Shown here: positions 18,263 through 31,247 of the stretch, one piece after another
Layout of the letters: each line of letters begins with the position of its first letter
Numbering within the stretch: the first letter of the stretch is position 1
Virus record (IMG/VR): IMGVR_UViG_3300034198_016918
Span: 1 to 35,891 of that record
Source of the DNA: a virus
DNA length: 35,891 nucleotides
Reading direction: 5' to 3' (one strand)
The notes under the pieces: generated by a model
The model's input: the letters and a program-made list of their open reading frames with translations, nothing else
What the model was told of the DNA's origin: nothing
Databases searched by the model: none
Position numbers and translations under genes: made by a program

Positions 18263-19014
18263 CTTATCTTTGTTGCGGTAAAGTTTACGTCATAATAAAT
18301 ATCCATCACGCCATTTTGCACGCGCTTATCAGCTACAGGCTCGGCCCATTCTGTCAGAAAATAAGTTGCTGTCCCTGGGGTTGCTGAGGTGACATCTTCC
18401 ACCCATTCTTCCAAGAGCACAAGATTGGTAGCATTTACCCAGCCTTGAACACGAAGAATTTGAGTGGCTCCCAAGGGGCCCGTAATGACATGCCTGCCAC
18501 TTGGATTGAGGGCCACAGATGGTAGATCTACAAATCCTTCTGCCCTAGCTTTAAGGTTGACAACAGCAGCGCCAAATGTGAGCGTCCCAAGCTCTAATGC
18601 CTCTTCGTCTTTAGTTTCGTCCTCCTTCTCTGCCAGCAGTATGGCCAGGGCCTCTTCTGCGTCTACGACGGTGAGAGAAACCCGGCAAAAAATGCCTGCT
18701 AGCTCAATTGTTGGGGCCGAAACAAACCAACATGGAATGGCAGCAGACCATTCAAAGCCCGGAGCTTCACCGGTAAAATCTACAGTTATGCCAATCTCTC
18801 CCGTCTCTTTTGGGTCGGCTTCTAGGATCCGATCGGCGGACCATGCTCGAAATAACTCTGTAACAATTGCGGCATCATCTCGGCTGAGGATTCCTGAAAT
18901 GCTCCAATGCCTAGCAGCCCGTCCCCTGCTGGTGTCCGTCTCCTCAAAGCCAACGGGGTGTTCCGTTAGGTTTGGGAACGTGTATTCAGTTCCGTCATAA
19001 GAGAGGGTGATCAT
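18259..19014 (-). CDS. Distal tail protein-like, 251 aa
   Basis: ATG 19014 overlaps the end of the tape measure gene, and the stop overlaps the hub start. The sequence is a soluble mixed protein with FEETDTSRGRAARHWSISG and DRILEADPKETGEIG near the start, an acidic insert (AEKEDETKDEEALELG) and a C-terminal beta region ending in MDIYYDVNFTATKIR. Position between tape measure and hub is the standard place for the Dit/distal tail protein, which caps the tail tube. The family call rests on context. Confidence 0.6.
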   Translation of the reverse strand: MITLSYDGTEYTFPNLTEHPVGFEETDTSRGRAARHWSISGILSRDDAAIVTELFRAWSADRILEADPKETGEIGITVDFTGEAPGFEWSAAIPCWFVSAPTIELAGIFCRVSLTVVDAEEALAILLAEKEDETKDEEALELGTLTFGAAVVNLKARAEGFVDLPSVALNPSGRHVITGPLGATQILRVQGWVNATNLVLLEEWVEDVTSATPGTATYFLTEWAEPVADKRVQNGVMDIYYDVNFTATKIR

Positions 19015-22000
19015 CTGAAGCTTTGCATAGTGTGCAGGAGGCCTGCATTGCTGGGGGTGTGCACCTCAACAGTCGGTGGGCGATAGCTGCCCATAGTTTT
19101 CTCTAAGCGATCGATGCTGCGCTGGAGGCGAACAAGCGCTAGCTGAGCATCACTGCCACCGCGAGGCCTGGCCACGGCCGCAGCCATCTGCTTGGTAGGA
19201 GGTGAGCTGCCCCGATCAAAAGCTCCCATAGCGTCAAGATTGGCGGTGATTCCAGCAGATAACACCATGCCCCGAGAGGGTGCTACCCAATGGCCGTACT
19301 GCGGGGCCCTAATTTTGCTCAATGTGCCCGTAGCCGACAGGAAGGCTTCAGGACCGATTTCATTAACGGTGTAGGAACGGGCGGCCTCAACACCACCGCC
19401 AGCGAAGCGGGCCGGGGCCTGGGGAGTGTTAAATGCGGCCAGCGCATCTACTGCTGCTCGAATGTTGTCCGCAACACCAACCCAGCTATCAGCTAGGCCC
19501 TGGGTTGCGGTGACGGTGCCCTGAGTGCCATCCGCCAGCAAGGCCTGATCCGTGACAACCTGGCTCACGTCAGGCGGCTGGAGGCTGTCGTAGGCCTGCT
19601 GTAGCTGCTCAGTGCCAGGGTTATTAGCCAGGGCCTGATCAAGCCCCTGAGCAGACTGAATGGCAGCCTGTAGTGAGGCGTTGATTCCGTCCGTACTGGT
19701 AGCCGCATCACCGAGCGATGTGCCTACAGCTGCAAACGGATCCGTGCCAATGTTGAAATTTTGGAAGTCTTCTCCAATGCCGCGAATCTGGTCCGAGATG
19801 GGCAGCAAAGCATTAGATGCATTTAAGAAACTAGACGAGAGCTGCTGATCAACGCCAGTAACATCAGAGCTAAATCTATTTAAGGCATCAGAGGTAAAGC
19901 CAAGGTCATTCCTGATTTGATCAAGCCCGTTAGCCTTAAAGTTGATAGCTTGATCAAAGGAATCAGTCGTTTTAAGCTGATCAATAAAGGCTTGAACCGG
20001 CCCACGGATGCTAGATAAGCCAGCACTAGAATCAAATCCAGCAGGCTTGACAGATAGTTCAATGGGATCTTTTGACTCTTGCTGTTTAAATGCCCCAAGA
20101 TCCTTTTCCGCTCCAGTGGTATCTAGCTTGGGCTTAAGGCTGAAGTCAGCCCTAAATGGATCATTGATTTGGTTGATAAAACCTTCTCTTTCTTTAAGCA
20201 GTCCCTCTCGCTCAGCCTGCAAACGACGATTAAGGACATCGTAAGCGCCAGATCCATCAGCTATGTTTTTATATTTAGGATCGTTTAGTCCATTGGCAGA
20301 TGTGGCTGCATCAAAGATTCGCGCTCTTTCTGCAAAGTCATTTTTTGCAATCCGATCGTTTATATTTGCAACTTTTTTGTCATACTTGTCAAGCTGCTTA
20401 AAAGCATCCGTTGTATCACCAGTAAACTTTAGCTTAGTGATTGCACTTTCATTTTCCCTGTCAAACGCAGTGAGCTGTTTTTTTGCAGGAGCTGTATCAA
20501 GTTGAGCCTTAAGGCTAAAATTTGGATAAGTCTGTAAATCATTTACAAATGATTGCCTTTCTTTTAATAGACCTTCTCTTTCTGCCTTAAGCTTTGCAAG
20601 ATTTTCTTCAAAGGGCTTTGTGCTGCCCTGAATAACAGGAGCGCTATCTTTAGGGTCTACGCCAACACCAGACAATGGTGATCTTAAGCGTATTTGCCAT
20701 TCCTGATCATTTATCTGATCCCTATTCCGGTTAAGCTTTTTATCAAATGCTTCTAATTTGCTTTCAGCACCTTTGGTGTCAGCATTGACAATAATGTCAT
20801 AGTTAGGCTTTGCATAAGCATCCTGAAGCCTTTTAGCTTCATCTGCAGCTAGTTTTGATTTGCCGCCGAATTTATCCATCTCGGAGCTTGCACCCTTAAG
20901 CCACTGAAGCTGCGCTCTAGCGTTTGGATCTTCAGCCATTCCAAGCTGCGGATTATCCTTATTCATCAAATAATCTTCATATCTTTGGATAACAGCGTTT
21001 CCTTTTTTGTCAAAAGTCAAGATCTCTGACCACTGGTTACGAGAAACTTCTTTGCCGGCAGCATCAAATCCTTTCCTGACGTAATTGACAAAAAAGGTAT
21101 TTGCAGCGCCGGCCAATTTTTGCCAGCCAGCTCCCTCCATTTGTTTAGATGAAGGTTGCTGTCCGCCACGTTGTACGGCGTCATTTCCGCCTGAACCGCC
21201 GCCAGCTCCACCACCCCCGTTTCCTCCTGCACCGCCGCCAGCCCCACCACCCCCTCCTCCGGCTGCTGGCTTGACACCCTGATAAGCCTTAGCCAGATCA
21301 CCAACACTCTTGGTCCCTTCCTTGATTGCTTTGTTGTGTGCATTGATCACATTCAAGACTTTATCCGCTTGCTTTGTGACATCATCCCATGCCATTTTGT
21401 TTTCGCCAATCTTGCCTTTAGACTGGTCTAATTGATCTAGTTGCGGCTTAAGAGTGCCTTCTGTGCCTTGTTCCGCAGCTTTAGCCCTGAATTGATTGGC
21501 TTCAGTCCCTTGCTTCAATGCAAGCGTATCTTTTTCCATTGCAAAAATCTGCCCAAGCTGGCCTAGCCGCTCTTTCTCCGCAACGACTTGAGCATTGCTT
21601 AATTCAATTGATTGCTGCTGTAATTTAATCTGCTCATCAATTGCAGATTTTTGAGCATCAGTGAGACCTGAATCAAGTCGCTTACTTTGTAATTCAGCAA
21701 GTCCTTTTTTGTCTTCCAATACACCACGTTCTGCAGCGCGAACAGCACCCTCCTGCTCAAGCTTCATGGACATTTGCTTAAGCTCAAGCACTTTGCGCTC
21801 CATTTCAAAACGCTTAGCAGCTCCTTCAATAGCAGCAGCTAATGCTTCTTGCTCAATTTGCTTGCCACGCTCTTTTAAGTCTTTAATCTCATTTTCTTTG
21901 GATTTAATTGTATCAGCTATCTCTCTTTCTTTAGCAGCAATCTGCTCTTGACTTGCACCGCGATCACGCATATATTGCAACATCTCTTGACCACTATCGC

Positions 22001-24944
22001 GGATTGTCTGGATCTCTTCGTTGGCAACGTTTATGTCTCTATTATTGCGTGCTCCCTTAACATCAAACTGACTTTGTGTAAATCCAGCTTGAGCGCTGGC
22101 CATGCTCATGTAAGCATCAGCCATCTGGCGAATGGTTTCTAGCCTGCCCTTGTCCAGTGACATCAGGCGATTGCCTAGGTCTATTCCACGTTGTTCATTT
22201 TCAAGCTTTGACTTTGAAGCTTCAAGATTAGCCTTTAGCGCATCAAGTTTATCTTTTTCTTTTTGTACTTGTTTTCCGGCAGCGTCTGCTTGCCGTTCAG
22301 CGGCATCTGCAGATTGACCCGATGCTAAAGCAAGCTTAGTTTGTAAATCAGCAACAATTTGAGTATAAGCGGCAACCTTCTGCTTCTGCTCGGCTTCTCT
22401 TTTTGAAAAGTTATCATTAGACTCAAATCTTCCTCTGCTTACCGGAATTTGTGCCTGCTCAAGTTTTGCTCTTGCAACTTCTAGCTCTGTTTGAAGTTTA
22501 GATGTATCAATGCCAGCCTTAAACTTGATTTCATTCTTGTTGGCAAGACTTTGGAGTGACGTAATCTGTTTGTCTATATTATCGCGACCTGTCGTGTCAT
22601 CAATACTTAGCTTGATTTTTTGCTCCATTAATCCTTGGATTTTATTCTTAATTTCTTGCTGATCCTTGACAAACTTTTGCGAAGCAGCATCTAACTTGGC
22701 AAAGCCTTGGCTGCCTAAGCCCTCCTCTGCTGCTTTAAGGACGTCACGATATTTTTCAGCCGCTTTGATTTGTGCATCCAAGCTAGCTGTAGCCGGGGCA
22801 TCTTTACCTAGCTTATCCCTTTGCTCTTGCAGGGACTTGATTTGTCCTTCTGCCTTTTGAATGTTAAGCTTAATTTCTAATGGATTTTCTAACGCTTGTA
22901 GATCTGATTCTTTTGCTGCTTTAACCTTTTCAAGATCTGTGGTATCAATCTTGAGCTTTTTGCCTTGTTCAATCTGTTGGCCTAAAGATGTGATTTCGTC
23001 CTTAAGAGTTTTAGATTTATCGGTTAGAGCTGTTGTTTCTTCACCTGTTACGGTGATAGCCTTGCCCATAAAATAATAAGCACCGGCCGCAAGTGCTGCA
23101 GCAGTGGCAACCTTTGCAAGGCCTCCGGGTGTCAAGGAAGTTAAAAGGATCTGAATAGCGGCGCCAGCTTTAGAAGCATTGTTCCATGCAACTTGAGCTG
23201 TTGTAATGCCTTTTAGCACAGCCACAAAAGTGCCAAGCCCTACAGCGGTTTGAATCAGAGTTTTAGTCGTGCGATCGGTTTCCTTAAAGTGACCCGTCAA
23301 CACTCCTGCAGCGGCACCAAGCCCAAACAGAATTATGGTTCCTGCGCCAAGAGGACCAGCGATAACCGTAGCGACTGAAGTGATGGCAGCACGCATCGCC
23401 GCCCAGCCACCGATTGATCCGACAACGACGTTAAGAGCCCCAATTCCAACGCTTGCGGCTGTAGCAGCGCCAGCTATTCCAACCAACGCCCCTGCCGTAG
23501 CCTTAATCGGTGTTGGCAAGCCTGATATGGCACCTGCAGCAGCATTAGCCAGTTGCAACGGCCCGCGAAGAGCAGCGGCTAACACTCCACCAACGTTATT
23601 CCCAATTGACTTAAGAGTGCCTTCTAATTGACGCACTTCTAAGCCAAAACCTGCCATAGCAGTCCTGGCTGTATTAGTGGCACCAGCACTATTTTTCATA
23701 TCGCTAAACATCTTATTGATGGCAGCGGTACTTTGGTTCGTAATGCTTAAGAATTTAGAGCCGGCTTCTTCTCCAAAGAGGATATTCATGATCCTGACTT
23801 GATCGGCTCTGCTTAGTTCAGAAAGGCTGGCTTTCAAACGCAGAAAAACCTGATCCAATGGCAGCAGATCACCTTTAGCATCTGTAACAGATGCGCCTAG
23901 TTTTTTCATCGCTGCAGCAAGGCGATCCTGATTACGCGACAGTCCTAGGATTTCTGGAGACGCCCCACCAGCGGCTTGCTGTAACTTCTGCAAACCAAGT
24001 CGCAAGCCCGTGCCGGCTACAGATCCTTGGATACCAGCGTTGGCCATAAGGCCTGCAGCGGCAGCTACATCCTCAAGGCTTACGCCTAACGCTTTCGCTA
24101 AGGGAGCGGCATACTCAAAGGTATAGCCAAGGCCTTCGATGCTGGCGTTGCTGCTGTTTGCAGCATTTACGAGAACATCTGTAACGCGAGCAGTTTGATC
24201 AACTTCAAGCCCAAATCCTCTAAGCGTATTGCCTACAATATCACCCATTCTTTCTAGGCTTGTGCCAGTAGCCTCAGCCCCACGGACAACACCTGGCAAG
24301 GCTTTCTCTACTTCGCTCACACTAAAGCCTGCACGCACAAGCGAAGTAGCAAGTTCTGCCACCTGTTTTGTCGTTGCAGCGGCTTCAATGCCTACTTTAT
24401 CTACAATTGTTCCCAGCCTTTCGTAGCCGCCGGCTTCTCCAGCGGCAGCAGCGGCAAGGCGAAGCTCACCGTCAAGCTCCATAAAGCCACCAATGAGCCC
24501 TTTAAGGCCAGCCAATCCGCCAATCGTGGCGTTAGAAAGCTGTTGAGTCAGCGAGACAGCAACGCCTGTGACAGCGGCCTCCAGCAGATTAAGATTTGAT
24601 GCACCTTCCTTGCTTGTTGCTCCTACGGCAGCTCGAAAAACATCAGTCGATTGAGCAGCCTCCCTAAAGCCTTTATTAATTCTTGACAGTCCTTCAATAA
24701 CCTCTTTAGGGACAGCACCGCCACTAACAGTTTCAAACCTGAGATTAGTCCTGCTAAATCGAAGACCTACTTCTTTTGCTGTTTTATCAGCTTGCTTGAC
24801 AAATTCATCAAAGGCTTGTTGAGCTTTAGGTGTAAGACCTTTGTAAAAACCTTCGCCAGCTTGACCACCAGCCGCCTGTAGGGCACGCTGCAGCTCTTCC
24901 TGATTTTCAAGGGCTAAGGCAATTGAAACCTGAAGATCTGCCAC
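19011..24944 (-). CDS. Tail tape measure protein, 1977 aa
   Basis: The largest gene, starting at GTG 24944. The N-terminal 450 residues resemble TP901-type phage tape measures (AAAAGEAGGYERLGTIVDKV, VAAAAGLMANAGIQGSVAG, MNILFGEEAGSKFLSI). Hydrophobic segments follow near residues 475-555 (GALVGIAGAATAASVGIGA, AGPLGAGTIILFGLG). Long coiled coils then run from about residue 640 to 1200, then a Gly-rich hinge near 1228-1255, further helices, and a C-terminal region ending PSNAGLLHTMQSFR. At roughly 0.15 nm per residue the tail would be near 300 nm long. The motif GGGAAAACT lies upstream. Confidence 0.93.
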   Translation of the reverse strand: MADLQVSIALALENQEELQRALQAAGGQAGEGFYKGLTPKAQQAFDEFVKQADKTAKEVGLRFSRTNLRFETVSGGAVPKEVIEGLSRINKGFREAAQSTDVFRAAVGATSKEGASNLNLLEAAVTGVAVSLTQQLSNATIGGLAGLKGLIGGFMELDGELRLAAAAAGEAGGYERLGTIVDKVGIEAAATTKQVAELATSLVRAGFSVSEVEKALPGVVRGAEATGTSLERMGDIVGNTLRGFGLEVDQTARVTDVLVNAANSSNASIEGLGYTFEYAAPLAKALGVSLEDVAAAAGLMANAGIQGSVAGTGLRLGLQKLQQAAGGASPEILGLSRNQDRLAAAMKKLGASVTDAKGDLLPLDQVFLRLKASLSELSRADQVRIMNILFGEEAGSKFLSITNQSTAAINKMFSDMKNSAGATNTARTAMAGFGLEVRQLEGTLKSIGNNVGGVLAAALRGPLQLANAAAGAISGLPTPIKATAGALVGIAGAATAASVGIGALNVVVGSIGGWAAMRAAITSVATVIAGPLGAGTIILFGLGAAAGVLTGHFKETDRTTKTLIQTAVGLGTFVAVLKGITTAQVAWNNASKAGAAIQILLTSLTPGGLAKVATAAALAAGAYYFMGKAITVTGEETTALTDKSKTLKDEITSLGQQIEQGKKLKIDTTDLEKVKAAKESDLQALENPLEIKLNIQKAEGQIKSLQEQRDKLGKDAPATASLDAQIKAAEKYRDVLKAAEEGLGSQGFAKLDAASQKFVKDQQEIKNKIQGLMEQKIKLSIDDTTGRDNIDKQITSLQSLANKNEIKFKAGIDTSKLQTELEVARAKLEQAQIPVSRGRFESNDNFSKREAEQKQKVAAYTQIVADLQTKLALASGQSADAAERQADAAGKQVQKEKDKLDALKANLEASKSKLENEQRGIDLGNRLMSLDKGRLETIRQMADAYMSMASAQAGFTQSQFDVKGARNNRDINVANEEIQTIRDSGQEMLQYMRDRGASQEQIAAKEREIADTIKSKENEIKDLKERGKQIEQEALAAAIEGAAKRFEMERKVLELKQMSMKLEQEGAVRAAERGVLEDKKGLAELQSKRLDSGLTDAQKSAIDEQIKLQQQSIELSNAQVVAEKERLGQLGQIFAMEKDTLALKQGTEANQFRAKAAEQGTEGTLKPQLDQLDQSKGKIGENKMAWDDVTKQADKVLNVINAHNKAIKEGTKSVGDLAKAYQGVKPAAGGGGGGAGGGAGGNGGGGAGGGSGGNDAVQRGGQQPSSKQMEGAGWQKLAGAANTFFVNYVRKGFDAAGKEVSRNQWSEILTFDKKGNAVIQRYEDYLMNKDNPQLGMAEDPNARAQLQWLKGASSEMDKFGGKSKLAADEAKRLQDAYAKPNYDIIVNADTKGAESKLEAFDKKLNRNRDQINDQEWQIRLRSPLSGVGVDPKDSAPVIQGSTKPFEENLAKLKAEREGLLKERQSFVNDLQTYPNFSLKAQLDTAPAKKQLTAFDRENESAITKLKFTGDTTDAFKQLDKYDKKVANINDRIAKNDFAERARIFDAATSANGLNDPKYKNIADGSGAYDVLNRRLQAEREGLLKEREGFINQINDPFRADFSLKPKLDTTGAEKDLGAFKQQESKDPIELSVKPAGFDSSAGLSSIRGPVQAFIDQLKTTDSFDQAINFKANGLDQIRNDLGFTSDALNRFSSDVTGVDQQLSSSFLNASNALLPISDQIRGIGEDFQNFNIGTDPFAAVGTSLGDAATSTDGINASLQAAIQSAQGLDQALANNPGTEQLQQAYDSLQPPDVSQVVTDQALLADGTQGTVTATQGLADSWVGVADNIRAAVDALAAFNTPQAPARFAGGGVEAARSYTVNEIGPEAFLSATGTLSKIRAPQYGHWVAPSRGMVLSAGITANLDAMGAFDRGSSPPTKQMAAAVARPRGGSDAQLALVRLQRSIDRLEKTMGSYRPPTVEVHTPSNAGLLHTMQSFR

Positions 24945-25752: not shown

Positions 25753-25917
25753 ATGGCTTGCGGCTTAGTCCGGCTAATCTGCGAAGAGCCCCTTACCCCA
25801 CCACCTGGGCAAGAGGGGAAACCTGTTGTGATTGAAGTCACGCCCCAACAAGTTTCAACTGAGCTGGCACGCCTCAGGCAAGACGGCTGGCAACAAATCT
25901 CACAATGGATCCTATGA
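25753..25917 (+). CDS. Small hypothetical protein, 54 aa
   Basis: ATG 25753 lies 5 bases after the previous stop. The product is soluble, with a beta-turn start (ACGLVRLICEEPLTPPPG) and a helix near the end (STELARLRQDGWQQISQW). Its end overlaps the transpeptidase gene (start at 25905 or 25914). The close packing supports translation. Function unknown. Confidence 0.55.
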   Translation: MACGLVRLICEEPLTPPPGQEGKPVVIEVTPQQVSTELARLRQDGWQQISQWIL

Positions 25918-26537
25918 CAACCTCTGAAGCAACCCCTGTCAAGACAGAGGCAGAAGCGAAGCCAGCATCAGCATTAAAGCCACAACCGCCAAGGTTGCCA
26001 GCCTGGCCCGTCGGCATGGTGGGGCCCAAAATCCGCCCACCCCTTAAGCCTGGTGATCATCATTTGATTGCTAACGATATAAACGAAACACTAACGGCTT
26101 ATACGCATGATGGGAAACTTTTGTGGCGCGTGCCTTGCCTGTGCCGTGGGCAAGGTGGCGAGGCCGAGTGGAAACGTACGGCAGAAGACACCCCACCCGG
26201 CCTATACAAGGTTAACAAAAACGGCACCTATCGGGATTATGAGACCGATCGCAGCGCCTTTAATTGCGATGGGAACCGCCAGAGCTACGGTTGGTATTCA
26301 TTCGACTTGCAGGGTCTTGAAGGTCAAGAAGGACCCAATAGCAAGCCCTACCGTGATGGAATCATGATTCATGGTGGCGGCTCAGCTTGTGGCTGGCCTG
26401 AAGCATGGCGGCCACGTCAAGAATTGCACCCAACACTAGGTTGCATAAGGCTACACAATGTAGACCTTAGGGATAAGGTTTTGCCATTGTTAGGCCTAGG
26501 TGAAATTTACATTTCAGTATTACAAGAGGCATCATGA
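25905..26537 (+). CDS. L,D-transpeptidase (YkuD-type)
   Basis: The catalytic block is clear: GIMIHGGGSACGWPEAW, followed by HPTLGCIRLHNVDLRD. This matches the YkuD pattern H-x-G ... S/T-x-G-C-x-R, with Cys as nucleophile. The N-terminal 40 residues are Pro/Ala/Lys-rich without a signal peptide. The core from about residue 50 has strands HHLIANDINETLTAYT and LWRVPC. Such enzymes make 3-3 peptidoglycan cross-links or attach proteins. ATG 25905 or 25914 may be the start. The gene is in the accessory block near lysis genes. A phage role in cell-wall remodelling or in blocking superinfection is inference. Confidence 0.85.
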   Translation: MDPMTTSEATPVKTEAEAKPASALKPQPPRLPAWPVGMVGPKIRPPLKPGDHHLIANDINETLTAYTHDGKLLWRVPCLCRGQGGEAEWKRTAEDTPPGLYKVNKNGTYRDYETDRSAFNCDGNRQSYGWYSFDLQGLEGQEGPNSKPYRDGIMIHGGGSACGWPEAWRPRQELHPTLGCIRLHNVDLRDKVLPLLGLGEIYISVLQEAS

Positions 26538-26905
26538 GCGCAACTGAAGATCTGATTCGGGATAATTTAGATGACCTACTTTTAGCACTGTCTCATGACA
26601 AGGAAGAGCGCAAGGCTTTGAAGCAACAGCTTGTAGAGAGCAGACAACAGTTTGAACAACTGCAGCAGCAATGTGCTGAGGCAATGGAATGGGCGCATGA
26701 AAATGCGCTGGCAGCGGTTGCCGTCAGGGAGCACGCAATCTTGCTCAAGGGCGTGGAATGGGAACGGCAACGGGTTTTGCTCCTGATCGCCATGGAACTT
26801 GACCGCCTTGAGGGGGAGGGCACTAATGCACTAGCCCTAAAACACCTTCGAGAGAACATTTTGCAAGTTGCTAGCCCCTGTCCAGATCTAGGCAAGGCAA
26901 GTTAG
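26534..26905 (+). CDS. Coiled-coil protein, 123 aa
   Basis: The start overlaps the transpeptidase stop (ATGA). The protein is almost all helix: EERKALKQQLVESRQQFEQ runs into LQQQCAEAMEWAHENAL, then WERQRVLLLIAMELDRLEG. Heptad-like spacing suggests a coiled coil; no membrane segment is present. It could be a small structural or regulatory protein coupled to the transpeptidase. Function unknown. Confidence 0.65.
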   Translation: MSATEDLIRDNLDDLLLALSHDKEERKALKQQLVESRQQFEQLQQQCAEAMEWAHENALAAVAVREHAILLKGVEWERQRVLLLIAMELDRLEGEGTNALALKHLRENILQVASPCPDLGKAS

Positions 26906-26931
26906 GATCAGGCCGGTCACCAGCGAAACCA
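26901..26931 (+). promoter_or_regulatory. TTAGGATCAG plus CACCAGCGAAACC leader
   Basis: TTAGGATCAG at 26902-26911 is followed by CACCAGCGAAACC at 26918-26930. It repeats the recT leader architecture (TAGGATCAG then CACCAGCGA). One A is missing compared with the copies at 4134 and 35627, and the following start is TTG rather than ATG. Confidence 0.5.
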
Positions 26932-28398
26932 TTGTTCAACCCTGATTTCTACCCCACCCCGCCCGAAGTAGCGGCCACCATGCTTGATTGCCTCGACCTA
27001 CGGGGCAAGACGATCCTGGAGCCCAGCGCCGGTAGCGGGAACCTGATCCGCGAGTGCCTCAACCGTGGCGCCGCTGAGGTGCTCTACTGCGAGCAAGAGC
27101 CCCAGCTTCGGGACATGCTGTTTGCGATCAAGGGTACCTGCCCCCTGGCTCGCCGCTACGGCAACTTCCTGAACGCCGAAGCGGCCGACGTGTCGCACAT
27201 TGACCTGATCGTGATGAATCCGCCTTTCTCGGCGGATGAGGCCCACATCCTCCACGCCTGGGAGATTGCCCCTCCAGGGTGCGAAATCGTAGCGTTGTGC
27301 AACTGGAACACGATCAGCAATTGGCGGGGCAATCCGCTCACTTCTAGGCCCGGCACCCGCCTTCAGCAGCAGTTAAGCTATTTCATTGAGTCTTACGGGT
27401 ACAAAGAACACTTAGGAGAGTGCTTTGCTGATGCTGAGCGCCCCACGCGGGTGAGCGTGGGCCTTGTGCGACTCACTAAACCTGGGCAACGTGTAAGTGC
27501 TGATGAGTTCGAGGGGTTCTTCCTTGGCCCTGATGAGATCGAAGCTCAAGGCCATGGGTTGATTCCTTATCGCAAGAGTCGAGAGATTGTTCAGCGCTAT
27601 GTTGGTGCCTGCAAAATTTATGATGAGCAAGTGGAGGCAGCCGTAAGGCTAAAAGAAACGTTGGGTGGATTCTTTGGCGGGGAGCTTGGCTTGCAAGTGA
27701 CAATTGATGGTGCCTCAGTTGCTAGGAATCGTTTTCGCAAAGAATTGCAGAAAGCTGCTTGGAAGCACGTATTTGATGAGTTTTTGCCGGCACAAATGGC
27801 AACTAGCCAGCTAGCAAAGGACATTAATAAGTTCGTTGAAGATCAAAGTAAAATTCCTTTTACCGAAAGAAATATCTATCGCATGCTGCAAATTGTAGCC
27901 GGCACTCAAGAGCAGCGTGTTGATCGTGCTGTTGAGGAGGCAATTGATAGTCTAACCCGCCACACAAAAGAGAATCGATATGGTGTTGAAGGTTGGGTGA
28001 CAAACTCTGGCTATATGTTGAATCGTAAATTTATTAGAGATTATATGGCAGAGTCAGGCTTTTCAGGGCGTGGAGATTTGAAAATCAAATCCTATAGCAG
28101 GCAGTCTGATGAGATTAGGGATCTAATTAAAGCGTTGTGTTTTATCACTGGGAGATCTTATGACGAGGTTCAGCAGCCAAAAAAATCAGAAGATGGATTG
28201 TATTGGCCCGGCGAGTGGTACGAATGGGGATTTTTTAGGTTTAAGCCATACAAGAAAGGCACAGTTCATTTTGAGTTTTTAGACGAAGAGGTGTGGGCTG
28301 CTGTTAATGCCCGCTATGCACGTATCAAAGGGCAGGTCTTGCCAGAGCAGCATCGGCGTCCTAAACGTGCCAAAAAGCGGCAGGAGGTAGCGGCATGA
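26932..28398 (+). CDS. Adenine-specific DNA methyltransferase with DUF4942-like region
   Basis: The N-terminal half is a class I methyltransferase: FYPTPPEVAATMLDCL, the SAM-binding motif ILEPSAGSGNLIREC, and the catalytic motif IVMNPPFS typical of N6-adenine methylation. The C-terminal 250 residues (ETLGGFFGGELGLQVTIDG, FRKELQKAAWKHVFDEFL, YGVEGWVTNSGYMLNRKFI) resemble DUF4942. The gene opens with TTG 26932 after a phage leader repeat. No restriction enzyme is adjacent, so the likely role is protection of phage DNA or gene control. The first 450 bases are GC-rich and the rest AT-richer, suggesting a mosaic gene. Confidence 0.87.
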   Translation: MFNPDFYPTPPEVAATMLDCLDLRGKTILEPSAGSGNLIRECLNRGAAEVLYCEQEPQLRDMLFAIKGTCPLARRYGNFLNAEAADVSHIDLIVMNPPFSADEAHILHAWEIAPPGCEIVALCNWNTISNWRGNPLTSRPGTRLQQQLSYFIESYGYKEHLGECFADAERPTRVSVGLVRLTKPGQRVSADEFEGFFLGPDEIEAQGHGLIPYRKSREIVQRYVGACKIYDEQVEAAVRLKETLGGFFGGELGLQVTIDGASVARNRFRKELQKAAWKHVFDEFLPAQMATSQLAKDINKFVEDQSKIPFTERNIYRMLQIVAGTQEQRVDRAVEEAIDSLTRHTKENRYGVEGWVTNSGYMLNRKFIRDYMAESGFSGRGDLKIKSYSRQSDEIRDLIKALCFITGRSYDEVQQPKKSEDGLYWPGEWYEWGFFRFKPYKKGTVHFEFLDEEVWAAVNARYARIKGQVLPEQHRRPKRAKKRQEVAA

Positions 28399-28730
28399 GC
28401 TGCACTGCTGATGTCTGGTATCCGCCATCTTGCGGGACAGGCAGCTTTCTATTTGCCAATCTACCTTTTAGAACCATGACAACAATCATTCCCAATCGCG
28501 ACATACAACACGGCGGGATGGAAGCCGTAGGTGCTATAGAGCAGCCCATTAAAGATCTAATGCGTAGTGGCAGTAACTGGAGCAAGCTATCGCCAGGATC
28601 TAAATCTGCCCTGGATATGATAGCGCAAAAGATAGCACGTATTTTATCTGGCTCTAATCCGCATGATCCGCAACACTGGGAGGATCTTGCGGGCTATCCT
28701 GAAGCTGCCATGCGTGACTGGAATCAGTAA
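28395..28730 (+). CDS. DUF6378-like phage protein, 111 aa
   Basis: ATG 28395 overlaps the methyltransferase stop. A second ATG at residue 28 (MTTIIPNRD...) may be the real start, because conserved sequence begins after it. The C-terminal half (SALDMIAQKIARILSGS, then HWEDLAGYPEAAM) matches a small phage domain I know as DUF6378, whose function is not established. The first 27 residues are not obviously conserved. Confidence 0.65.
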   Translation: MSCTADVWYPPSCGTGSFLFANLPFRTMTTIIPNRDIQHGGMEAVGAIEQPIKDLMRSGSNWSKLSPGSKSALDMIAQKIARILSGSNPHDPQHWEDLAGYPEAAMRDWNQ

Positions 28731-28734
28731 GCAA

Positions 28735-28743
28735 ACGGGAAAA
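28735..28743 (+). repeat. Partial GGGAAAAC junction motif
   Basis: A plus-strand copy lacking the final T, five bases after the stop of the gene at 28395. Confidence 0.35.
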
Positions 28744-28753
28744 CAAGAGATAA

Positions 28754-28805
28754 CAGCGTTGCCTCTTCGTGGTAGACTCGAACCATCCAGCGTTGCCTCT
28801 TCGTG
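28754..28805 (+). repeat. 18-bp direct repeat overlapping the nuclease start
   Basis: CAGCGTTGCCTCTTCGTG occurs at 28754-28771 and again at 28788-28805. The second copy ends in the GTG start codon of the nuclease gene. The 16-base spacer completes TGGTAGACTCGAACCA, which has TGGT/ACCA ends. Confidence 0.85.
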
Positions 28806-29147
28806 TTCCCTTTTCCTTTTGTCTATCGCCTTAAGAATGTAGCTCGTGTTCTTGATGGCGACACCATTGATGTAGACATTGATCTAGGCTTTAGCCTAAC
28901 CTTGCGACAGCGAATCAGGCTGATTGGCATTGATGCTCCTGAACTAACTAGGCCAACAGAGCGAGCAGAAGCAGAAGCAGCCAAGATTTTTGTGCAAAAA
29001 TGGTTTGAAACCCCAGGACTTGTCTTAGTTCAAACGACCAAAGATGACAAGTACGGTCGGATGCTCGGAGAGTTTCTCCGCGAAGGGATGCCCTCTCTTG
29101 GGAAAGCACTCCTTACGGCTGGATTGGCCAGGCCTTATAACCCATAG
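28803..29147 (+). CDS. Staphylococcal nuclease (SNase)-like protein, 114 aa
   Basis: A short SNase/thermonuclease domain: ARVLDGDTIDVDIDLG, QRIRLIGIDAPELTRP and a TKDDKYGRMLGEFLREG loop. The Asp residues after VLDGDT and in IGIDAPE are the usual calcium and catalytic positions, and the Lys-Tyr-Gly-Arg loop carries an active-site Arg. A C-terminal ALLTAGLARPYNP end is typical. It has no signal peptide, so it probably acts inside the cell, degrading host DNA or processing phage DNA. The start is GTG 28803, inside a direct repeat. Confidence 0.87.
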   Translation: MFPFPFVYRLKNVARVLDGDTIDVDIDLGFSLTLRQRIRLIGIDAPELTRPTERAEAEAAKIFVQKWFETPGLVLVQTTKDDKYGRMLGEFLREGMPSLGKALLTAGLARPYNP

Positions 29148-29159
29148 GGCCGGGCCCCT

Positions 29160-29200
29160 ACCAGGATCAGGGAAAACTGAAGCGGCCCTCAGGCCATCCC
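29160..29200 (+). promoter_or_regulatory. AGGATCAGGGAAAACT element before the gene at 29216
   Basis: This site joins the two motif families: AGGATCAGG and GGGAAAACT overlap in AGGATCAGGGAAAACT (29163-29178). It is followed by GGCCCTCAGGCCATCCCA, similar to GGCCTGAGGGCCATCCCA near 30826-30843, which precedes the gene at 30858. Confidence 0.5.
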
Positions 29201-29215
29201 ATTGCTCTCGCTTTT

Positions 29216-29764
29216 ATGGCCGACACTTCGTCCCCCACCAGGGTGTCTAATATCCACGTCGCAGGCTTGTGCGACATGGTGACGCAATACGCTATTGAAG
29301 CTAAAGAATCACAATCCGCCAGCATTGGTGGGGTGTATCTTGAGCCCGACATGACACGTGTCGCTACTTATCTGGACAGCCTGGACAAGTTTGTTGCAGC
29401 TGCTAACAAGAAGCCTCTTGACAGCCCCAAATCCAACAACCTGTTGGACGCGATGCTTAAGACTTTCCCTGCGGACGATGACATCCAAGGGATTGAAAAC
29501 ATCTACGTTAAACAGATTTGTCTGTATTTCCGTGGGATGTGGAATGAAGCCGCCCGTTGTCAGTCCGCAGACCTTACTACGGGTTTCTTGCCGCCTGATG
29601 CTCAGCGACTGCTGGATTATGTTGACTCTTGCCGCGATGTCTTGAATATGGCGAGCACCTTGATTGACATGCCAGAGAATAGGGACAATGTCCCTATTCC
29701 AGGTGGCGGAGGTGGCGGAGAGCAGTCTGCACGCAGCGGTCAGCGCTTTGCAAGGCAATTCTGA
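29216..29764 (+). CDS. Hypothetical protein, 182 aa
   Basis: ATG 29216 to TGA 29762-29764. The protein is soluble and helical, with EPDMTRVATYLDSLDKFVAA, IYVKQICLYFRGMWNEAARC and QRLLDYVDSCRDVLNMAS. The end is a Gly-rich tail (PIPGGGGGGEQSA) followed by an Arg-rich segment. It is not similar to a family I recognise. The Gly-rich tail overlaps another frame that may encode the next protein. A virion or lysis role is only a guess from the position. Confidence 0.65.
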   Translation: MADTSSPTRVSNIHVAGLCDMVTQYAIEAKESQSASIGGVYLEPDMTRVATYLDSLDKFVAAANKKPLDSPKSNNLLDAMLKTFPADDDIQGIENIYVKQICLYFRGMWNEAARCQSADLTTGFLPPDAQRLLDYVDSCRDVLNMASTLIDMPENRDNVPIPGGGGGGEQSARSGQRFARQF

Positions 29765-29945
29765 TGCCAGCAACGCCGTAGGTGTCCACGTAGCAACAGG
29801 AGCCCCGGTCTATCAATGTGAAAAGACTGGGGCTTTTTACTACCTGGGAACTTGCAGGCAGTATGTCTCAAGTCATTATGTAGGCCCATTAGTGCAGCAG
29901 GAAAAAAAGAAAAAGGCTAAAAAGCCTAAAAAGCACAAACACTGA
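29688..29945 (+). CDS. Small Cys- and Lys-rich ORF overlapping a terminator
   Basis: The protein-like core is GVHVATGAPVYQCEKTG, then AFYYLGTCRQYVSSHYVG, followed by a strongly basic end (EKKKKAKKPKKHKH). Two Cys could bind metal. The start is uncertain: an ATG at 29688 lies within the upstream gene in another frame, and a TTG near 29747 is possible. The stem-loop at 29801-29838 lies inside the coding part. The Lys-rich tail suggests nucleic-acid binding. Function unknown. Confidence 0.45.
   Translation: MSLFQVAEVAESSLHAAVSALQGNSDASNAVGVHVATGAPVYQCEKTGAFYYLGTCRQYVSSHYVGPLVQQEKKKKAKKPKKHKH
29801..29838 (+). terminator. Intrinsic terminator inside the ORF at 29688
   Basis: AGCCCCGGTCT pairs with AGACTGGGGCT around a 12-base loop: an 11-bp stem with one G-T wobble, followed by TTTT. 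It would end transcripts after the gene at 29216, unless antitermination or translation across it prevents folding. Confidence 0.75.
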
Positions 29946-29956
29946 TTTTCTTTCTC

Positions 29957-30103
29957 ATGGACAACCCTCAAAACGTAGCAGTCGTCCTAGGCGTTCTGCT
30001 TTCTGTCTCTGAAGCGCTCAGCCTGATTCCTACTATCAAGGCCAATGGAATCTTCCAGCTTAGTTTTCGTATTATTCGGAGCCTGTCTGGAAAAAAGGGC
30101 TAA
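29957..30103 (+). CDS. Small membrane protein, candidate holin, 48 aa
   Basis: ATG 29957 to TAA 30101. The first half is a hydrophobic helix (VAVVLGVLLSVSEALSLIPT), the rest is basic (FRIIRSLSGKKG). Short proteins with a similar VSEALxLIPxIKANGIFQL pattern occur in phages; I think some are marked as holins, but the assignment is not proven. Its last codons GGA AAA AAG GGC TAA contain an A AAA AAG slippery heptamer. A -1 slip would continue it through a stop-free linker into the lysozyme. It lies 11 bases after the previous ORF. Confidence 0.75.
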   Translation: MDNPQNVAVVLGVLLSVSEALSLIPTIKANGIFQLSFRIIRSLSGKKG

Positions 30104-30116
30104 GCGTCAGCTTTAG
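30077..30116 (+). promoter_or_regulatory. dnaX-like -1 frameshift signal
   Basis: CGGAG (30077-30081) resembles a Shine-Dalgarno sequence 9 bases before the heptamer AAAAAAG (30091-30097), which is in the correct phase (GGA AAA AAG). The bases just downstream can form CTAAGC-GTCA-GCTTTAG with one bulge (30100-30116). The -1 frame is then open to the lysozyme stop at 30789. The elements and spacing are those of the E. coli dnaX recoding site, though the distance to the stem is shorter. Confidence 0.6.
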
Positions 30117-30231
30117 TATTGGCCGCAAACGCGGATGGAAGGCGGATCTAATCCGCCTTTTTTATAAATGGTGGTTTGAGCTGACGCTACCTGCAAAGAT
30201 TGATGCAGCAGAGAAACAAGTTCCCGAGCCC
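30104..30231 (+). other. Stop-free linker in the lysozyme frame
   Basis: Between the TAG at 30061 and GTG 30232 the lysozyme frame is open for 56 codons with no ATG, GTG or TTG. It reads like protein: IGRKRGWKADLIRLFYKWW, FELTLPAKIDAAEKQVPEPV. It could be translated only through a frameshift or a rare start. The intrinsic terminator at 30141 lies inside it. Confidence 0.6.
30141..30163 (+). terminator. Intrinsic terminator between holin-like gene and lysozyme
   Basis: GGCGGAT and ATCCGCC form a perfect 7-bp stem with a CTA loop, followed by TTTTTT. It lies inside the stop-free linker and should reduce transcription into the lysozyme gene. Confidence 0.8.
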
Positions 30232-30789
30232 GTGAAGCCTGCTCCTGTTATTATTGAGCACGCACCAACGCCAGAAACTAAAACGCCTCTAGGTGGCGCC
30301 ATGTCAATTCATGCGCCATGGTCTCTTGAGCCTGGCCTTGCACTAATCAAGGAGTTTGAAGGCTTTGTTGGCACTGCTTACCCTGATCCGTTGTCAGGGG
30401 GTGAGCCATGGACAATAGGATACGGGTCAACCTACGTTAAGAGGAAGAAGGTTCAACGTGGGGATAGGATTACTCAAGCAGAAGCTACGACAGAGCTTAA
30501 GACAGAGCTAGCTAAGCTGGCTGAAAGGTTAGAGGATCGTATTCCATATTGGACTGAAATGAATGCAGCGCAACGCGGTGCGTTGTTATCGTTTGCTTGG
30601 AATTTAGGTGGCAGTTTTTATGGATCGCCTGGCTTCAAGACAATTACTTATGCCTTACAAAATAGGCGCTGGAAAGAGGTGCCAGACGCATTAAAGCTTT
30701 ACCGCAATCCTGGCAGCAATGTTGAGCAAGGCTTGCTACGTCGTCGCGTAGCGGAGGGCACGCTATGGCAGACAGGGTTGAAGGACTGA
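30232..30789 (+). CDS. GH24 lysozyme (endolysin)
   Basis: The T4-lysozyme-type (GH24) fold is clear: LALIKEFEGFVGTAYPDPLS contains the catalytic Glu (EFEGF). It is followed by WTIGYGSTYV, ITQAEATTELKTELAKL, LSFAWNLGGSFYGSPG and LYRNPGSNVEQGLLRRRVAE. It cleaves glycan bonds in peptidoglycan. No signal peptide is present. The best independent start is ATG 30301, which has AGGTGG 4 bases upstream and gives 163 aa; GTG 30232 gives 185 aa. The frame is also open upstream and may be reached by -1 frameshift from the small membrane protein. Confidence 0.9.
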   Translation: MKPAPVIIEHAPTPETKTPLGGAMSIHAPWSLEPGLALIKEFEGFVGTAYPDPLSGGEPWTIGYGSTYVKRKKVQRGDRITQAEATTELKTELAKLAERLEDRIPYWTEMNAAQRGALLSFAWNLGGSFYGSPGFKTITYALQNRRWKEVPDALKLYRNPGSNVEQGLLRRRVAEGTLWQTGLKD

Positions 30790-30815
30790 CTGATGGCGGT
30801 CTGGATCTGGGCTAG

Positions 30816-30857
30816 GATAGGGAAGGCCTGAGGGCCATCCCAAGGGCGTCTTGCAGC
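30816..30857 (+). promoter_or_regulatory. CTAGGATAGGG element before the gene at 30858
   Basis: CTAGGATAGGG at about 30821-30831 is followed by GGCCTGAGGGCCATCCCA, close to the GGCCCTCAGGCCATCCCA before the gene at 29216. The shared block indicates a repeated control region. Confidence 0.45.
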
Positions 30858-31247
30858 ATGGACTTTTCCACGTTTGAATTTCTCAGATCGACTAAACAAC
30901 GATTTGAAGAACTCGTAAATCAACTCACTTCATTCATTCCACTAATGGCTACACTTTTTGACCGGATTTCTGAAGTTGTTAATTTTCTCCTAAGTGAGAA
31001 AACTAAACTTCTGGAAGAAAATGCGCAGCTAAAAGAGCAACTGGCTCAAGCTCTTGCCAATGATGTTGCTGATGCCTCAGCCATCGCTGCTGCTCAGGCT
31101 GAGGCTGAAGCGGCTAGGGTTGTGGCTGATGAAGCCAAGGCCAAATCGGAAGAGCTTCAAACTCTTGTCGATGAGGATACGGCTGAAGACGCGCAAATTC
31201 TTGCGCTACTGGATGCTACTCTGCCACCTTCTGAGCCCACAGCCTGA
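30858..31247 (+). CDS. Coiled-coil protein, 129 aa
   Basis: ATG 30858. A hydrophobic-leaning N-terminal helix (FLRSTKQRFEELVNQLTSFI) leads into a heptad-patterned coiled coil (LSEKTKLLEENAQLKEQLAQ) and an Ala/Glu-rich repeat region (AAAQAEAEAARVVADEAKAK). It ends in an acidic tail. It resembles a trimeric or dimeric rod without a known domain. It lies after the lysozyme, with a control element of its own upstream and a terminator downstream. Function unknown; the rod-like sequence is compatible with a structural or membrane-associated role. Confidence 0.7.
   Translation: MDFSTFEFLRSTKQRFEELVNQLTSFIPLMATLFDRISEVVNFLLSEKTKLLEENAQLKEQLAQALANDVADASAIAAAQAEAEAARVVADEAKAKSEELQTLVDEDTAEDAQILALLDATLPPSEPTA

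Follow-up and report, generated by a model that had tools for sequence, protein, structure and literature searches.

A predicted programmed -1 frameshift in a small membrane protein gene of cyanophage lysis cassettes

A small membrane protein gene and the open -1 frame behind it

The window analyzed here is a 35,891-nt stretch of viral DNA (IMG/VR virus record IMGVR_UViG_3300034198_016918, at its full length). A plus-strand lysis block at 25905-31247 is flanked by minus-strand genes, comprising a 1977-aa ORF (19011-24944) that looks like a tape measure gene and further genes beyond 31484. Near the lysis region, the window carries an L,D-transpeptidase gene (YkuD, PF03734; 25905-26537), a gene for a DUF4942 protein of 488 aa whose N-terminal part is methyltransferase-like (PF03602 match; 26932-28398) and, just upstream of the transmembrane (TM) gene described below, a homolog of Staphylococcal nuclease (PF00565; 28803-29147). 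A nuclease-like reading frame is also found near one related TM gene (L088).

The original prediction had described a 48-codon TM gene that ends GGA AAA AAG GGC TAA in the 0-frame, with a slippery heptamer in phase and a CGGAG nine nucleotides upstream of it, and we found all of these exactly where it placed them (Table 1). Equally confirmed were a -1 frame open to the lysozyme stop, 56 codons in that frame without ATG, GTG or TTG, and a 277-residue fusion of the membrane segment with the lysozyme. The -1 frame contains no stop between TAG at 30061-30063 and the lysozyme stop at 30787-30789; the 56 start-free codons (30064-30231) are its first, and the earliest in-frame start codons are GTG 30232 and then ATG 30301, the latter preceded by AGGTGG. 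The lysozyme itself is real (PF00959), and the residues of the E-D-T catalytic triad are present by sequence (FEG, YPDPLSG, WTIGYG). Across the slip, the predicted junction reads SGKKGLSVSF in the window and KGKKALGK in cyanophage S-CBS3.

Table 1. Coordinates of the features at the window locus.
Feature	Position	Strand	Basis
TM gene, holin-like, 48 aa, single TM segment (0-frame product)	29957..30103	+	sequence, translation
CGGAG, Shine-Dalgarno-like, 9 nt upstream of the heptamer	30077..30081	+	anti-SD pairing -5.8 kcal/mol
Slippery heptamer A_AAA_AAG; spacing to the 0-frame stop, 3 codons	30091..30097	+	sequence; family-wide conservation with synonymous-site fixation
0-frame stop TAA	30101..30103	+	sequence
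-1 extension (linker); first -1 codon GGG at 30097, ends before ATG 30301	30097..30300	+	homologous extensions, stop-free, purifying selection only in the -1 frame
Intrinsic-terminator-like hairpin and T-tract, AAGGCGGATCTAATCCGCCTTTTTT, inside the -1 extension	30139..30163	+	GC-rich stem, short loop and T-tract all present
Conserved LGGAMSIHAPW motif; stands at the C-terminus of the relatives' extensions	30289..30321	+	alignment to relatives
Candidate free lysozyme from ATG 30301 (AGGTGG 30291-30296); alternative start GTG 30232	30301..30789	+	sequence; start codon not conserved in relatives
Phage lysozyme domain PF00959 of the fusion product	30349..30756	+	Pfam, 83.6 bits against a cut-off of 22.3
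Predicted frameshift product, 277 aa: TM segment, linker and lysozyme	29957..30789	+	translation across the slip

The slip site and the extension across the family

Scanning viral contigs with the linker-lysozyme protein as query gave hits at 113 loci, 80 of them retained. Alignments extended up into the linker at 33-58% identity, and at many loci the linker frame had no start codon before the conserved part. Directly upstream of the linker, in the other frame, lay a TM gene (e.g. MDFLSHPAFWIIIAAASELIALSPLKDNGIIQLVFHALRALKGKKL), and at the 77 loci with a junction a heptamer occupied the same place (A_AAA_AAG at 59, C_CCA_AAG at 17 and G_AAA_AAG at one). A later scan added a distant clade and contigs of up to 106 kb, and the family as finally counted comprised 149 distinct genes, drawn from cultured cyanophages as well as viral contigs, for which a hydrophobic segment was required. 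A heptamer two to three codons before the 0-frame stop, together with an extension of at least 47 aa, was found in 131 of these 149 genes, and the extension measured 47-115 aa in the relatives and 230 aa in the window. Four heptamer types were represented among the 131, with A_AAA_AAG in 105, C_CCA_AAG in 12, G_GGA_AAG in 11 and A_AAA_AAC in 3. These 131 were selected by the heptamer itself, the fair denominator being the roughly 133 genes with a conserved extension, and the counts are not independent because the sequences are related. Two genes with a conserved extension, and no others seen, had an imperfect slip site (G_AAA_AAG in L025, TCA AAG in L230), which could reflect weaker frameshifting, another mechanism or sequence errors. 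The scan of genome contigs gave a single locus (L171), titled a Hyphomonadaceae MAG, with a cassette nearly identical to those of two viral contigs (L165 and L167); it is probably a mis-binned stray phage contig.

The heptamer is fixed at positions where the encoded protein leaves a choice of codon. The codon before AAA AAx was NNA in 108/108 A-type genes, across ten different amino acids. In 78 aligned A-type genes with three-codon spacing, the two slip-site lysines were encoded AAA and AAG in 78/78, after a codon ending in A, and the lysine one codon upstream in the same genes was AAG in 36 and AAA in 33. Similarly, Phe-Pro-Lys was encoded TTC CCA AAG in 12/12 genes. From amino acid sequence and pooled codon usage, about 11 heptamers would be expected in the 131 genes. 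Family members that have no extension use other codons at the site (e.g. GGC AAG AAA GAC TAA), and the heptamer is absent from them.

The window TM protein, used as query, matched only such extension-less relatives, which provided a useful control. The window protein matched phrog_22542 and phrog_3509 distantly, both of unknown function; relatives are strong members of phrog_22542. Its sequence (SEALSLIPTIKANGIFQL) is closer to the extension-less relatives L081-L088 than to S-CBS3-like proteins, and its linker is S-CBS3-like, so that the TM gene and linker are possibly of recombinant origin. In one of these relatives (L083) the site reads GGC AAA AAG, a single base off the GGA AAA AAG of the window.

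We then compared 55 distinct linkers in all three frames. In the -1 frame they contained no stops and showed strong purifying selection (pS 0.68, pN 0.24, median dN/dS 0.18), while in the other two frames the ratios were 1.5-1.8 and stops occurred in 55/55. This frame contrast repeated separately in the S-CBS3-like, C_CCA_AAG, GxIESPIFW and T7-like clades. Changes in linker length came in multiples of three, and the spacing from the slip site to GGAM varied by whole codons. The extension usually consists of a basic and aromatic amphipathic stretch, a proline-rich stretch and a terminal motif of the GGxxSIxAPW type. When homologs at odds with the original prediction were sought, those bearing an extension showed no stop or out-of-frame indel, and those without the heptamer were also without the extension. 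Stand-alone T4-like cyanophage and marine virus proteins (L184, L185, L186) carry ETGxFGxxGWSIxI, like the C-terminus of the T7-like extension; as a stand-alone homolog of the C-terminal motif in the T4-like cyanophages S-SSM7 and P-RSM1, the match is weakly supported (hhalign probability 22%).

The site also occurs in cultured cyanophages, namely S-CBS1, S-CBS3, KBS-S-2A, S-EIV1 and the T7-like S-B28, WH11-B and 7B11-B. The last three read CCA AAA AAG TAA and have a shorter extension ending SISLT[AS]P, an arrangement repeated in eight viral contigs, one of them a 100% match to S-B28. In siphoviruses, the frameshift gene has a gene for a TM/coiled-coil protein of 80-100 aa before it and the endolysin gene after it. 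In T7-like phages, it lies between the tail fiber and small terminase genes, an interval that in T7 contains holin gene 17.5.

Frameshifting weighed against other readings

Conservation of the heptamer and of the linker and the synonymous-site signature, the comparisons that the original prediction had called for, very strongly support the -1 frameshift that was originally predicted. Because the heptamer is fixed at synonymous sites, selection acts in the -1 frame only and no member has the heptamer without the extension, we consider programmed -1 ribosomal frameshifting at 30091-30097, with its products, very likely. The majority of ribosomes would terminate at 30103 and release the 48-aa holin-like protein, and a minority would slip by -1 on A_AAA_AAG, through tandem slippage of the lysine tRNAs in the P and A sites, and continue in the -1 frame. 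The occurrence of four heptamer types fits such tandem slippage and not an artefact of an A-run. In most related cyanophages, the slip would lengthen the protein by a C-terminal tail of 47-115 aa; in the window, where the tail is fused in frame to the catalytic domain of a lysozyme, the 277-aa product would therefore arise by -1 frameshifting as a membrane-tethered lysozyme beside the short form. The sequences show the site with its phase and conservation, the coding selection that acts on the extension and the arrangement of the genes; the slippage itself and its efficiency we infer.

The same heptamer in the same phase is found in E. coli dnaX, where short and long products (gamma and tau) also come from one start. 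The dnaX frameshift yields the short form and uses a strong Shine-Dalgarno sequence and a stem-loop. In contrast, the cyanophage frameshift would yield the long form, and the dnaX-like stimulators invoked in the original prediction are not supported as a general feature, since across the family we found no consistent downstream fold (z about -0.4, like other stretches) and, in the A_AAA_AAG class, no upstream Shine-Dalgarno signal. In the C_CCA_AAG class, AAGG lies 7 nt upstream in 10/12 genes. The small stem-loop that had been noted after the window heptamer can form, in that the stretch 30098-30125 folds at -8.1 kcal/mol, but its z of -1.5 is not unusual; CGGAG is a possible stimulator in the window phage only.

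The frameshift could also act mainly as a regulatory switch for the downstream gene, a reading that is compatible with programmed frameshifting and was counted apart from it. Ribosomes that had shifted would reach and couple the next gene and, in the window, would keep the terminator-like hairpin unformed, so that lysozyme transcription would need frameshifting. A next gene was identifiable for 119 family genes, and in 114 of them its start and the end of the -1 ORF share 4-65 nt, which makes translational coupling likely. Three strong terminator-like hairpins were counted in the 36 kb, and the one at 30139-30163 lies 3' of the 0-frame stop, within the -1 frame. A ribosome ending at 30103 would leave it free and a frameshifting ribosome would run across it, giving the hairpin a putative part in the control of lysozyme transcription. 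It had been missed in the original prediction, which took the linker for a plausible juxtamembrane segment; the DLIRLFYK part of that segment is encoded by the hairpin. In the 131-gene family, the hairpin was found in the window only, bar one weak case, and the strong purifying selection on the extension sequence indicates that the extension protein itself matters. Both points count against a switch, which we regard as unlikely to be the main function of the frameshift.

Current annotations treat the region as two separate genes. S-CBS3 gp21 and gp22 are the two halves, with gp22 annotated from an ATG inside the extension, and the published calls for gp22 (L090, 2160-2327) and for AHV82131 of S-EIV1 (L172, 1671-1907) begin at codons inside the extension. 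The heptamer would then be incidental, and the extension or lysozyme frame would begin internally, at a non-standard codon, at GTG 30232 or at ATG 30301 in the window; internal ATG, GTG or TTG codons are indeed present in the extensions of some relatives. However, conserved extension residues lie upstream of the internal starts, and in 87 of the 131 genes the extension runs for its first 25 codons without ATG, GTG or TTG; in 77 of the 87, none occurs as far back as the previous stop either. A conserved internal start at the GGAM methionine was rejected, as relatives read GGAI, GGEI or GGPI there; the free lysozyme that the original prediction started at ATG 30301 may be made in the window phage, but by the same substitutions its start codon is not conserved. 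A CTG start just past the slip was likewise rejected: CTG occurs only where the 0-frame stop is TGA, and many genes have CTA. Two genes would also leave the synonymous fixation of four heptamer types unexplained, and we consider this reading very improbable.

Slightly less probable still is transcriptional slippage on the A-run as the source of the -1 product. Bacterial polymerases are known to slip on A-runs and most members have A6 runs, but six is short for polymerase slippage, and the C_CCA_AAG and G_GGA_AAG members have the same architecture without a long homopolymer. Loss of a base from the A-run by sequencing or assembly error, homopolymer indels being common errors, could have split one ordinary gene. 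This is refuted for the family and retains a negligible probability, since independent isolates and contigs share the split, with the 0-frame stop always two to three codons on, and it occurs also at C_CCA_AAG and G_GGA_AAG sites without a six-A run. The window taken alone makes a weak case for frameshifting, with 11 AAAAAAG on its plus strand and a chance of about 3% for an open 68-codon stretch at its composition, and it is the comparative evidence that carries the case: a chance heptamer before a chance open frame, as negligible as error, is refuted by homologous extensions in more than 100 loci and by coding selection in that frame.

The lysozyme fusion and a possible role in lysis

Running on of the extension into a lysozyme was found in the window only, in 1 of the 131 family genes, and this fusion is known from one metagenomic contig only. 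Aligned with its relatives, it passes from LGGAMSIHAPW into the lysozyme core (SLEPGLALIKEFEG against DYAPALKLIKEFEG), and the fused lysozyme lacks the usual N-terminal domain as well as the C-terminal domain present in relatives. The membrane-anchored lysozyme of the original prediction thus follows for the window phage, but we rejected anchoring as a family-wide purpose because the extension in the other 130 members has its own C-terminus and the next gene, for an endolysin or small terminase, is separate. That a part which elsewhere stands alone is here fused to an endolysin hints at cooperation between the two. A structure model of linker and lysozyme gave a confident lysozyme fold with one linker helix, and no contact between extension and lysozyme was seen in it; SIHAPW was modeled at low confidence and therefore gave no clue to the binding partner of the motif. 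Judged by eye, the acidic N-terminus and the basic residues after the TM segment suggest that the tail, here the lysozyme, is on the cytoplasmic side. This would be the reverse of a SAR endolysin, which has a weakly hydrophobic signal anchor oriented N-in, C-out.

The TM protein has no match to a holin family, matching PHROGs of unknown function only and nothing in Pfam. Like a holin, it is a small protein with a TM segment in the lysis cassette, and its size, single TM segment and gene position make it rather likely that it acts in lysis. T7 gene 17.5 holin offers a parallel in that the T7-like cyanophage frameshift gene has a similar position, without a sequence match to known holins. Lambda S107/S105 are antiholin and holin made from two start codons, so that the N-terminus varies. 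Conceptually, the cyanophage gene is similar in giving two forms of a small lysis membrane protein from one gene, but there the C-terminus would vary, by frameshifting, and the protein is a putative holin. We tentatively suggest a division of roles in which the short form is the effector and the long form regulates or tethers.

Among tailed phages, the conserved frameshifts that are well known belong to tail assembly genes. They include the tail assembly chaperone frameshift (lambda G/GT, P2 E/E', HK97-like; Xu, Hendrix and Duda, 2004, cited in PMC3091744 and PMC3483164). The cyanophage site resembles it in that a conserved -1 frameshift signal, whose slippery heptamers are interchangeable, is placed shortly before a small gene ends and leads into a C-terminal extension. 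Unlike the chaperone, a tail gene preceding the tape measure, it concerns a single-TM protein of the lysis cassette, beside endolysin or small terminase. For the lysis gene of MS2, both a frameshift model (Kastelein, 1982) and a termination-reinitiation model (Berkhout, 1987) have been put forward, as cited in PMC5009743 and PMC10885494. There too a reading-frame event is tied to lysis-gene expression, but MS2 is an RNA phage, and the shift proposed for it brings ribosomes to a separate start without giving a conserved long fusion. Our literature search, for which most subscription journals were out of reach, found no frameshift in a holin or endolysin gene, in agreement with the original prediction, which knew of no such case. 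The available text of a 2016 recoding review does not mention holin, endolysin or cyanophage, and neither does the PRFect paper. The production of a lysis-cassette protein in two forms by this route therefore appears undescribed.

The frameshift site, located in the lysis cassette, is shared by siphoviruses, podoviruses of the T7-like type and phages whose contigs reach 106 kb. This recurrence across phage types, with four interchangeable slippery sites, points to a device that is old and has been maintained. Its presence reveals a protein overlooked in the published genomes of S-CBS3 (gp21/gp22), S-CBS1, KBS-S-2A, S-EIV1 and S-B28, and reannotation of S-CBS3 gp22 and S-EIV1 AHV82131 is due. 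More speculatively, and with considerable doubt, the frameshift ratio might set the timing of cyanophage lysis, with a holin as the short form and, as the frameshifted form, an inhibitor built into the same gene or a tether for the endolysin. In the window phage, the tether would be fused to the lysozyme, and the terminator would make lysozyme transcription dependent on frameshifting, as a frameshift-controlled attenuator. The finding thereby gives a testable model of cyanophage lysis timing and, in the window, a predicted membrane-tethered lysozyme made by recoding.
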